IMG/VR virus record: IMGVR_UViG_3300025099_004370
Span: 1 to 48,739 of that record
Source of the DNA: a virus
Reading direction: 5' to 3' (one strand)
Length of the DNA: 48,739 nt
Shown here: one piece after another, positions 29,823-33,581 of the stretch
Layout of the letters: the number at the start of each line of letters is the position of its first letter
Numbering within the stretch: the stretch's first letter is position 1
Notes under the pieces: model-generated
The model's input: the letters and a program-made list of their open reading frames with translations, nothing else
Database searches by the model: none
Told to the model about the DNA's origin: nothing
Program-made: the position numbers and the translations under genes

Positions 29823-30311
29823 ATGGCCGATTTATTAATGAAAATGCCTATACCTTATGAACCTAAAAGAAAAAATAGGTTTATATTAAGATTTGATTCT
29901 TCTTTAGGCATAAATGAATGGTATGTGGAGAGTACGTCGAGACCACAAATAACCATAAATTCAGTAGAGGTACCATTTTTAAACACATCTACTTACGTAG
30001 CAGGTAGATTTACGTGGAACACGATAAATGTAACCTTCAGGGACCCAATAGGTCCATCAGCAGCACAAGCTCTAATGGAGTGGGTAAGATTACATTCTGA
30101 ATCGGTAACTGGTAGAATGGGGTACGCAGCTGGTTATAAAAAGAATATAGACTTAGAAATGTTAGACCCGACAGGTGTTGTGGTAGAAAAGTGGATAATG
30201 CAGGGTACGTTCTTAACAGACGTTAATTTCGATAGTTTAGGTTATAGTGATGATGGGTTAGCTACAATTTCAGCAACACTAAGACCGGATAGATGTATAT
30301 TAGTTTACTAA
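29823..30311 (+). CDS. Tail tube protein (gp19-like)
   Basis: A 162-residue protein, same size as T4 gp19 (163). RKNRFILRFDSSLGINEWYVESTSRPQ at the start, then INSVEVPFLNTSTYVAGRFTW, ITVTFRD-like (NVTFRDPIGPSAAQALMEWV) and IDLEMLDPTGVVVEKWIMQG follow the tail tube fold, which stacks as hexamers inside the sheath. The final DGLATISATLRPDRC is the typical last strand. It has its own promoter and terminator, which suits the high copy number needed. Confidence 0.92.
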   Translation: MADLLMKMPIPYEPKRKNRFILRFDSSLGINEWYVESTSRPQITINSVEVPFLNTSTYVAGRFTWNTINVTFRDPIGPSAAQALMEWVRLHSESVTGRMGYAAGYKKNIDLEMLDPTGVVVEKWIMQGTFLTDVNFDSLGYSDDGLATISATLRPDRCILVY

Positions 30312-30473: not shown

Positions 30474-31232
30474 ATGCAAGAACAAATACCAAATCCGGAA
30501 GAAACGATTTTACCTTATGACGTGGTAACTTTACCATCACAGGGGCTATTCTACACCAATAAAAAGAAAACACTTAAAGTTACCTACTTAAACGCATCAG
30601 ATGAAAATTTACTAGCTTCCCCCGCAGTACAACAAGCGGGAACTCTAGTAGAGTCCTTACTAACTAAAAAAATATTAGACAAAGATATTGTAGTTAGTGA
30701 TATGCCGGATTGTGATAAAGAAGCGGTCCTTATATTTTTAAGAAACACAGCTTTTGGTTCAGACTATACTGTGACCTTGACCGACCCTAAAACTAAAAAA
30801 GAGTTTGAAACAACACTTGATTTGTCCGTTTTAAAACTAAAAGAGAGCAATGTGGTGGTTGATGAAAAAAACGAGTTTGAGTATTTGTTAGAACAATCAA
30901 AGAAAAAAATAAAATTAAAATTTTTATCACCAGCGGACGAACTATATCTACAAGAAATAGATAAAAGATATAAGAACGACCCAATCAATCCTTACATGAC
31001 TAAACAATTAGAGAGAATGGTTACAGAAATAGACGGAGTAAGGGACCCTATGACTATATCTCAAATGATACAAACTATGCCTATAAAAGATTCTCAAAGT
31101 ATTAGAAAAGTTATTAGAGAGAATACACCAGGACTAGACCTTAACATACCAACAACAACACCATCAGGAGAAGAAATGAAAGTAAGAATTTCATTGGGTG
31201 TTGAGTTTTTTCGTCCTTTCTACGGGCTATAG
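30474..31232 (+). CDS. Tail assembly chaperone/hub protein (gp26-like)
   Basis: A 252-residue protein. TLPSQGLFYTNKKKTLKVTY near the start is the LPSxGxFY signature of T4 gp26-type baseplate/tail chaperone proteins, followed by a DxxAxxILLRxxAFGxxY-like segment (CDKEAVLIFLRNTAFGSDY). Its place between tube and tape-measure genes is where lambda G and other tail chaperones sit. The coding end (31206-31212, TTTTTTC) overlaps a second frame that continues as a typical chaperone C-terminal helix domain, so this product probably exists in a short and an extended form. Confidence 0.7.
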   Translation: MQEQIPNPEETILPYDVVTLPSQGLFYTNKKKTLKVTYLNASDENLLASPAVQQAGTLVESLLTKKILDKDIVVSDMPDCDKEAVLIFLRNTAFGSDYTVTLTDPKTKKEFETTLDLSVLKLKESNVVVDEKNEFEYLLEQSKKKIKLKFLSPADELYLQEIDKRYKNDPINPYMTKQLERMVTEIDGVRDPMTISQMIQTMPIKDSQSIRKVIRENTPGLDLNIPTTTPSGEEMKVRISLGVEFFRPFYGL

Positions 31233-31410
31233 GAATGCCCTATTGCAAGAGTTTTATTATTTGATGAGACACCTCCATATACCATGGAGAGACCTTCTAT
31301 ACATGCCTACATTTGAAAGAAGATTCTACATAAATACACTAGTAGAAGAATTCAATAAAAAGAAAGAGTCTTACGAACAAGCAAAAAACAAATCGAAATC
31401 ATCATATTAA
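31198..31410 (+). CDS. Tail chaperone C-terminal extension (+1 frame)
   Basis: About 66-70 residues in the +1 frame relative to the gp26-like gene; this frame is open from 31186. LLQEFYYLMRHLHIPWRDLLYM then PTFERRFYINTLVEEFNKK matches the helix pair seen after frameshifts in lambda GT-like and gp26/gp51-like pairs. No convincing ribosome binding site; the first in-frame GTG (31198) lies inside the other gene. Expression by slippage at TTT-TTT-CGT (31206-31214) is favoured, but a separate start at the ATG near 31264 is possible. Ends 23 bases before the tape-measure gene. Confidence 0.65.
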   Translation: MLSFFVLSTGYRNALLQEFYYLMRHLHIPWRDLLYMPTFERRFYINTLVEEFNKKKESYEQAKNKSKSSY

Positions 31411-31433: not shown

Positions 31434-33581
31434 ATGTTGAACTTTCTTAAACAATTATTTATTGAGGGGATTTTATCTGGAGCTAAACCTTATTTAGCTT
31501 TTCACCCCGAATTAGGTGTGCCTATAGGGGTTTTTAACTATAAAGACGAACCTAATCGACAATCCCGTATAAAATCCATTAAAAAAATGGGTAAGAAAGG
31601 TAACCCAACATCACTAAAGTTAGCTAAATTGTTGGGTATAGATAATCCCATACCATCATTTGTAGACAAAGCAACACAGGATGCAATTGATAAAGCGGTT
31701 AAAGAAGCTTATGAAAAGGGTGTAAAAGATGGGGGTAAAAGTTCTTATAAGGGTGGTAATTATGGGTCTGGTACTTTAGGTTTATTTGAAGAAGCACAAA
31801 AACAAAGGGTCTCTAGAGAAGGTTTGTCTGTTGGGGAAGTTAATAAGTTAGGTGAACTTTTAAAGGGTGGTGCACTAAGCACTGCTGACATAAAAGAAAA
31901 TATGGGGTTCATATTAGATATGTTAGCTTTAGAAGATACCCTTAGAATAGGTATTTCTCAGTCTTTAGGGATGACTAATGAACAGTTATTCGATACCATA
32001 GACGAATTAAATGAGGCTGGAAAATCATCATATCAGTGGGGACTCACAGTAGACCAGTTATTCGAAACATTTAAAGCCATATCCCTAGAGATTGGTAGGA
32101 ATTTACGTATACCACCTGAAGTAACAACAAGGGTTGCTCTTTTAACTAAAACTTTAGAAGGTTTTGACGGAGCTGCATTCGCAGACGCATTTGATAGAAT
32201 TGGCTTTAGTTTGGAAAGTGCTATAGGTGGTGTTGACGACACTAATAACGCTATGTCTGACGTACTAAAAACAGGTAGGGCTATGGGTGTAGTGATGGAA
32301 ACATTCTTAAAAAATGTTTCAGGTGAGATTAAACTCATAAACACATACCAATTCGAAAACGGAGTACAAGGACTATCAAGAATGGTAGCTAGAGCTCAAA
32401 GATTAGGTGTTGAAATGGGGGATGTTACAGGTCTGGCGGAAAATTTACTAGACCCAGAAGGGGCTATAGAATTTGCGGCACAAATGCAAGTGATTGGTGG
32501 AGCGGCCAGTGACCTTACCGACCCATTTAAATTAATGTATATGGCTAGTAATGACCTAGAAGGTCTACAAACAGCCATTATTGATACTGCGGCCGCAGCT
32601 GCAACATTTGATGAAACAAAAAATAAATTTGTAATAGCACCCGCAACCCAAAGACAGTTAAGAGACCAAGCAAAAGCGATGGGTATGAATTACCAAGACC
32701 TAGCCGACTCCGCTACTAAAGCTGCAAGAGAATCAGCAGTTTTATCACAAATGGAGTTTACAGAAGGTATTAGTCCTGAAGATAAAGAACTAATAGCTTC
32801 AATGGCTCAAATAGGGAAAGGTGGGGCAGCGGAGGTTAAAATACCAGGTGTTGATGAATTAGTCAATGTCGCAGATGTTACTGATGAACAACTAGAGTTG
32901 TTAAGAAAAGAAGGTATGAGTGATACTGACATCTATAAACAACAATTGACAGTGGCAGAAAAAGCAAATCAGTATTTAGCTTTAATTGATACAGGGGTAA
33001 GGATGATGGTTGACTCAATGGGTGGTGACATGAGAGATGCTTTGGAAGAAGCCTTCTCACAAACCGCAGCAGGAAAAATGAATCTATTAACGGAAGAACA
33101 AATGGAGACCATGATGGGTGGTGATACAAAAGAGATAGCGAAGTTAATCGGTAATCTAGGTGGTACATTAAGTAAAGAGGCCCTAGGTTTAGTAAAGGAT
33201 GCTTCTGTTGGTTTAGGGGCTACCACATCAAAGGACTGGGAAAGTGTTTTGCCACCCGCAAATGATTTTATATTAAGACCTGGGATGAGTGAACCTCTAA
33301 GATTTAACAAGGGGGACTTAATAATAGGTGGTACAGAGTTAGACGCTATACTACAAGGTGGTATGGGAGGTAATACTGAATTACTAAATGAGGTTAGTAA
33401 TATGACAACAAATATGACCCAAACAGTGAATTCTGGTGTAAAAGAACACAAAATAACAGGTGAACTAACAATAAGAGATTCCCAAGGTGGGAGAGGTACA
33501 GTTTCCGCTGAAGATGTAGTAAGAGCATTCAATAGGAATAGTGCGGCCAGCAAAGATTTTTACATGATGTTACAATCATAA
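31434..33581 (+). CDS. Putative tape-measure protein
   Basis: A 715-residue, largely helical, Ala/Gly-rich protein located just after the tail chaperones, the standard place for a tape measure. Long helical runs (IPPEVTTRVALLTKTLEGFDG, SRMVARAQRLGVEMGDVTGLA, DTAAAAATFDE) and repeated Gly-Ala segments fit. By the rule of about 0.15 nm per residue it would set a tail of about 105 nm. N-terminal 30 residues are hydrophobic (FLKQLFIEGILSGAKPYLAF). A short C-terminal beta part (HKITGELTIRDSQGGRGTVS) may contact the tail tip. Called mainly from position and composition. Confidence 0.65.
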   Translation: MLNFLKQLFIEGILSGAKPYLAFHPELGVPIGVFNYKDEPNRQSRIKSIKKMGKKGNPTSLKLAKLLGIDNPIPSFVDKATQDAIDKAVKEAYEKGVKDGGKSSYKGGNYGSGTLGLFEEAQKQRVSREGLSVGEVNKLGELLKGGALSTADIKENMGFILDMLALEDTLRIGISQSLGMTNEQLFDTIDELNEAGKSSYQWGLTVDQLFETFKAISLEIGRNLRIPPEVTTRVALLTKTLEGFDGAAFADAFDRIGFSLESAIGGVDDTNNAMSDVLKTGRAMGVVMETFLKNVSGEIKLINTYQFENGVQGLSRMVARAQRLGVEMGDVTGLAENLLDPEGAIEFAAQMQVIGGAASDLTDPFKLMYMASNDLEGLQTAIIDTAAAAATFDETKNKFVIAPATQRQLRDQAKAMGMNYQDLADSATKAARESAVLSQMEFTEGISPEDKELIASMAQIGKGGAAEVKIPGVDELVNVADVTDEQLELLRKEGMSDTDIYKQQLTVAEKANQYLALIDTGVRMMVDSMGGDMRDALEEAFSQTAAGKMNLLTEEQMETMMGGDTKEIAKLIGNLGGTLSKEALGLVKDASVGLGATTSKDWESVLPPANDFILRPGMSEPLRFNKGDLIIGGTELDAILQGGMGGNTELLNEVSNMTTNMTQTVNSGVKEHKITGELTIRDSQGGRGTVSAEDVVRAFNRNSAASKDFYMMLQS

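Follow-up and report, generated by a model that had tools for sequence, protein, structure and literature searches.

Comparative evidence for a programmed +1 frameshift and an upstream RNA hairpin in a T4 gp26-like tail assembly chaperone gene

A programmed +1 ribosomal frameshift, predicted here by sequence comparison, very probably lets a single start codon give rise to two tail assembly chaperones in a viral sequence of 48,739 nucleotides (nt) (IMG/VR record IMGVR_UViG_3300025099_004370; the whole stretch is hereafter called the window). The first open reading frame (ORF), ORF1 (plus strand, 30474-31232), encodes in the zero frame the short chaperone of 252 amino acids (aa) (TAC-N, T4 gp26-like) and ends at a TAG codon (31230-31232), 18 nt past the shift codon. 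The +1 frame, open on the same strand from 31186 to 31410, contains LLQEFYYLMRHLHIPW..ERRFYI and would supply the long chaperone with its C-terminal domain (TAC-C). An earlier reading of the DNA letters (the original prediction) had placed the end of the gp26-like frame, the +1 extension, and the slippery run TTT-TTT-CGT (31206-31214, in frame) where we find them. More than 100 relatives of this T4-related phage appear to make a short and a long chaperone from one gene by the same +1 skip.

Under the mechanism that we propose, most ribosomes would read ...GVEFF-RPFYGL and stop, yielding the short form. Some would pause on UUU_UUU_CGU with the peptidyl-tRNA-Phe on UUU (31209-31211) in the P site and the uncommon CGU (31212-31214) awaiting in the zero-frame A site. 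The tRNA-Phe would then re-pair one base forward on UUC (31210-31212), a slip whose occurrence and efficiency we infer, and translation would proceed as ...GVEFF-VLSTGYRNALLQEFYYL... to 31410, giving a long form of 311 aa. An RNA hairpin at 31156-31203 may refold behind the ribosome at the mRNA exit and favor the forward movement, acting in cis as the duplex between Shine-Dalgarno (SD) and anti-SD sequences acts in bacterial prfB.

Codon conservation at the shift site

Relatives were gathered by two codon-neutral searches, one using a DNA pattern with both Phe and all six Arg codons left free and the other an alignment unconstrained at the site; together with isolate phages, these gave 194 distinct ORF1 sequences. 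The relatives sharing the FFR ending (the FFR class) comprise 146 representatives, less than 90% identical, which are nevertheless related, so that raw counts overstate their independence. The second Phe codon, on which the shift would occur, is TTT in 146/146 representatives, against a background of 78% in the same genes, and the next codon is CGN in 146/146, while CGN accounts for only 12% of Arg codons elsewhere in these genes. By comparison, alignment column 94 also holds an invariant Arg, and its codon is AGA or AGG in 123/146. Set against the gene-wide backgrounds, the invariance of the Phe-Arg codons therefore argues for selection on the nucleotides and not on the peptide. The alignment of relatives that the original prediction proposed as a check thus bears out the conservation of the site. 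Its description of CGT as rare beside a dominant AGA holds in part: in the 36 long ORFs of the window, AGA makes up 67% of Arg codons, but CGT, at 10%, is uncommon rather than very rare (CGC and CGG together, 0.6%), and 78/146 relatives have the much rarer CGG or CGC at the site (background, 0.8%).

An in-frame TTT_CGN occurs just twice in the approximately 15,000 codons of these window ORFs. Moreover, the overlap and the +1 extension are kept in every relative whose sequence covers the region, including close relatives in viral contigs. On this comparison, the overlap, the extension and the site are conserved far beyond chance. A scan of genome contigs returned three unrelated chance matches, none of them in a gp26 gene. 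The junction carries an in-frame UUU followed by CGN, and +1 re-pairing is the only requirement that the C 3' of UUU serves. Such a site, with presumed movement of the P-site tRNA from UUU to UUC, is shared with influenza A PA-X and the amalgaviruses. These are, however, eukaryotic RNA viruses, and no stimulator is evident for PA-X, whereas the present site would be read by bacterial ribosomes behind a conserved 5' hairpin.

Downstream of the site, positions +6 to +12 past the P-site codon (CCTTTCT; window 31212-31221) are fixed beyond the need of the +1 frame, and the codon after the zero-frame A site encodes Pro in each of the three +1 site classes described below. An effect of this 3' context on the shift is possible. 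No consistent folding was found 3' of the site in the relatives with CGN there (the CGN class; z of about -0.4 to -0.7). The closest relatives alone (the window clade) have a short candidate hairpin, recognized by eye, at 31223-31245, pairing GGCAT with ATGCC in relatives and GGGC with GCCC in the window.

A conserved RNA hairpin upstream of the shift site

Folding and covariation delineate, on the plus strand, a hairpin of two helices (31156-31203) whose 3' end lies 5 nt before the P-site codon. The outer stem pairs CAACACC (31156-31162) with GGTGTTG (31197-31203), and the inner stem pairs AATGAAA (31175-31181) with TTTCATT (31189-31195). A bulge on the 5' side (31163-31171) carries AUCAGGAGA, conserved among relatives as (A/G)UCAGGAGA. 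Relative to the P-site codon, the general layout pairs positions -52 to -46 with -13 to -7 (outer) and -36 to -28 with -22 to -14 (inner), and across the CGN class 5 to 7 nt separate the end of the hairpin from the shift codon. Folding of the 54 nt that precede the site gives a mean z of -1.7 (standard error, 0.11) and a mean energy of -14.4 kcal/mol in 73 CGN-class relatives, whereas most other folding windows along the gp26-like gene have a z of about -0.2 and energies of -4 to -6 kcal/mol. The covariation score reaches 0.295 in a set of 60 diverse sequences and drops to 0.193 after shuffling and to 0.09 to 0.135 in slid controls. On the tree of the 146 representatives, simple parsimony on a FastTree topology counts 41 double changes that keep a pair (24 inner and 17 outer), while slid controls give 1 to 6 inner and 0 to 2 outer changes. 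An earlier tree test of the single pair -49:-10 found about three compensatory events and no significant result for independent pairs; taken jointly, all pairs give a stronger signal. Alifold recovered the outer stem only, the inner stem having come from per-sequence folds, and an Rfam search returned no match. These comparisons show that the hairpin exists and is evolutionarily maintained, and they add to the original prediction, which included neither the hairpin nor the several shift sites of the T4-like gp26 family.

What the hairpin does is less certain. It may be unrelated to frameshifting, or the stimulator may be an SD-like sequence within it (GGGGU or AGGAG), an alternative that we take seriously although we consider it unlikely. 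Two highly conserved features resemble SD sequences: the Gly codon at -12, which is GGG in 125/145 relatives (background, 10.5%) and pairs with a C, and the AGGAGA in the bulge. However, where this Gly codon is GGT, the partner base is mostly A, and the window clade itself combines GGT with a compensatory ACA upstream. The AGGAG lies 39 to 43 nt upstream, too distant for a direct SD effect unless the fold brings it near. SD-like sites are also nearly absent from starts in the CGN class (0/144 gp26 starts and 4% of ORF starts). As a separate observation, the bulge, (A/G)UC(A/U)GGAGA, is near-invariant at synonymous positions in the window and its relatives (Gly GGA in 128/134) and looks like a displayed SD core, though CGN-class phages make very little use of SD sites. 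We looked for a conserved internal start following AGGAGA and saw none.

Returning to a stimulatory hairpin, prfB offers a bacterial parallel. In prfB (CUU_UGA), +1 movement is promoted by an SD:anti-SD duplex that forms just behind the ribosome. Both cases would combine P-site slippage with an upstream duplex, and one sister group described below also uses CUU_U; in the present gene, however, the A-site codon is a sense codon instead of a stop, and the duplex is a cis hairpin instead of an mRNA:rRNA pairing. Whereas the prfB signal ends about 3 nt before the P-site codon, SD-like tetramers occur at -7 in only 30/146 relatives. On ribosomes from both yeast and E. coli, engineered upstream hairpins imitate the SD duplex and increase +1 shifting (PMC3639245, PMC6321510), in the E. 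coli case with 70S ribosomes in vitro without RF2 (PMC6321510). Flavobacterium johnsoniae rarely uses SD sites and shifts poorly on prfB (PMC12421855). The start signals, together with a Flavobacterium phage among the relatives, suggest a similar non-SD host group. Since CGN-class starts are nearly free of SD sites, as in such hosts, a cis hairpin would be a logical replacement, and the hairpin, which would stimulate the +1 shift, probably takes the place of the prfB duplex. On balance, we favor the broader proposal that a natural, conserved cis hairpin, refolding at the mRNA exit, replaces the SD duplex as a +1 stimulator in phages of non-SD hosts, at a sense-codon UUU_CGN site previously described from eukaryotic viruses.

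Other shift-site classes and alternative routes to the second frame

Further codon-neutral searches identified two sister groups with the same +1 layout, one with UUU_UGG (TTT in 96/96) and one with CUU_UGG (CTT in 77/77), and each retains the base that permits +1 re-pairing. Cultured phages conform to this picture and carry, among others, CUU_UGG (immuto), UUU_UGG (Mel-JY01 and RM378), UUU_CGU (SagM-GXN1) and UUU_CAC (SP-15). The predicted junctions read ...GVSFL-GLTPEYR in Flavobacterium phage immuto, ...GPEFF-VPDLTK in Streptococcus phage SagM-GXN1, ...NSEFF-TPDSTTK in Bacillus phage SP-15 and ...ESFF-GISYDSEEELEK in Rhodothermus phage RM378. In the distant large or jumbo phages Atu_ph07, PA5oct, CM1, XacN1 and LR756511, the second frame is instead -1, and the same FF motif is encoded there by U_UUU_UUC or U_UUU_UUU; across lineages the shift therefore keeps its position but not its direction. 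Among the large-phage relatives, L016, L021, L024, L025 and L026 have such -1 heptamers (U_UUU_UUY) at this motif. The distant Pseudomonas phage QdP_Psa3 (L017, 2492-3208) has TTC_TTT_CCC_TAA and a +1 ORF, with two candidate +1 sites (UUU_C or CCC_UAA). The original prediction called +1 shifts exceptional, which stands for tail chaperones generally but not for this branch, where they are common. The tail chaperone of Halorubrum virus HSTV-2 was also judged very likely to use +1 (Atkins et al. 2016); HSTV-2 is an archaeal virus, likened here by shift direction and not by site type.

Could the second frame be reached otherwise? It is very unlikely to be a separate gene with its own start in the overlap (such as GTG 31198, TTG 31201 or ATG 31264) and no fusion product. 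Start-like codons do occur in the +1 frame of the window, one record (L014) lists the second ORF as an independent gene, and TTG stands at codon -5 in 105/146 relatives, where it is a by-product of TTT-GGG. No +1-frame start codon, however, is conserved among the 146 representatives, and 17 of them have a stop in that frame no more than two codons upstream of the site. Fourteen lack any ATG, GTG or TTG before the conserved motif or, where the motif was not recognized, before a fixed cutoff 20 codons past the site; nine of these have the motif itself, and L009 lacks any such codon before it. Conserved residues start at the shift site, and separate initiation leaves the invariance of UUU_CGN unexplained. 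Relatives with separate starts and no overlap, which the original prediction had put forward as the contrary case, were not found: the overlap recurs in every relative with readable sequence.

It is barely plausible that the frames are joined by a -2 ribosomal shift or by slippage of the transcribing polymerase along the T run. Many members have six or seven T's at the site, and -2 and +1 lead to the same frame, but the TTC_TTT_CGC members (L011 and L044) and the 77 TTT_CTT_TGG relatives have no long T run, a -2 shift in TTC_TTT members would place tRNA-Phe on UCU, and both processes leave the invariance of the base 3' of the P-site codon unexplained. Just as implausible is a full-length gene for the long form at another locus, the arrangement of T4, whose two proteins both match PF12322: a strongly diverged second copy could escape detection and the window is a fragment, but in the records of 11 large relatives (102-298 kb, completeness not stated) each half occurs once, the two halves adjoin and overlap, and no further gene encodes the full-length protein, so the T4 two-gene solution is absent there.

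The slip of tRNA-Phe from UUU to UUC before CGN, as originally proposed, is therefore the best-supported reading on comparative grounds, because of the synonymous-site invariance, the lack of a conserved start, the single copies and the full-length alignment to phrog_150. Several points weigh against it. The evidence is sequence-based; with CGU at a tenth of Arg codons in the window, a slow A site is an assumption; no phage tRNA genes are present in the window; and dual coding explains part of the conservation. As regards the hairpin, inner-stem pairing reaches 71%, with some clades in a shifted register, and the hairpin of Huang et al. boosted +1 shifting at a CUUUGA stop site, only without RF2 (PMC6321510). 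The UUU_UGG and CUU_UGG relatives also fold weakly upstream: the former lend an upstream hairpin weak support, and the latter have a short CCN-NNN-GGN hairpin whose 3' arm occupies the same position and whose one free pair covaries.

Internal +1 sites are "notoriously difficult" to spot (Atkins 2016), and Cho et al. 2013 called for a search for overlooked cis-acting regulators (PMC3639245). This gene family would provide more than 300 natural +1 examples in three codon classes, one of them with a conserved 5' RNA element, from which rules for P-site slippage and upstream stimulators could be read in evolution and tested.

Predicted products, neighboring genes and annotation

ORF1 matches PF12322 (T4_baseplate; E=4e-11, Pfam profile search) and phrog_150 (T4 gp26 family; E=1.4e-12, phrog profile search). 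The two halves of the fusion were structure-predicted separately. The AlphaFold model of ORF1 (pLDDT 86.6) matched T4-like hub proteins among viral structures, including that of SP-15 (E=8e-15), while in the PDB the HK97 tail assembly chaperone 2ob9 was the most probable among the best 50 matches, albeit weakly (probability 0.51, E=1.3). The part of the +1 frame translated after the shift would be 31213-31407. This ORF weakly matches phrog_634 (T4 gp51; E=0.019), conserves F..LS..Y..E..MP..R in a 36-member alignment and is predicted to adopt a helical fold (pLDDT 91.8). Residues 12-292 of the conceptual fusion align to 11-278 of the 282 positions of phrog_150; T4 gp51 covers 13-280, like the fusion, and T4 gp26 covers 14-235. 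By profile alignment, the predicted fusion is collinear with the long-chaperone family including T4 gp51, C-terminal domain included, while the fusion gave no significant match when compared by hhalign with individual T4 sequences.

Vladimirov, Gautam and Davidson reportedly dealt with the T4 gp26/gp51 chaperones in 2022. The short form would resemble gp26 and the fusion gp51, within the same protein family, but T4 uses two separate genes where the window has one overlapping locus. That gp26 and gp51 are short and long chaperones from two T4 genes is a view cited in a passage of PMC10885494. Poly-T -1 signals are already known in T4-like chaperone genes, according to a passage of PMC12846349 citing Virology 566:9-15, and frameshifting in the family is therefore not new; we claim as new the +1 site class and the hairpin alone, subject to comparison with Virology 566:9-15.

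The two overlapping ORFs lie between a tail tube gene directly upstream of ORF1 (29823-30311; phrog_4542, E=6e-32) and a probable tape measure gene (31434-33581), all on the plus strand. The latter is assigned by position only; it had no match in the phrog profile search, and its counterpart is annotated as tape measure in immuto, SP-15 and LIS04. The layout is that of lambda gpG/gpGT: the two chaperones, short and long, would share a start, the frame would change close to the end of the first ORF, and the flanking genes are the same. Lambda shifts -1, whereas a +1 shift at UUU_CGN with an upstream hairpin is predicted here. Our reading would also correct annotation: the records examined either lack the long chaperone or label its second half a separate hypothetical protein. 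Public records omit the C-terminal domain or give it as a hypothetical protein, separate or truncated, and none annotates a join (L014, 3264-3500; L018, L022 and L023, downstream of gp26).
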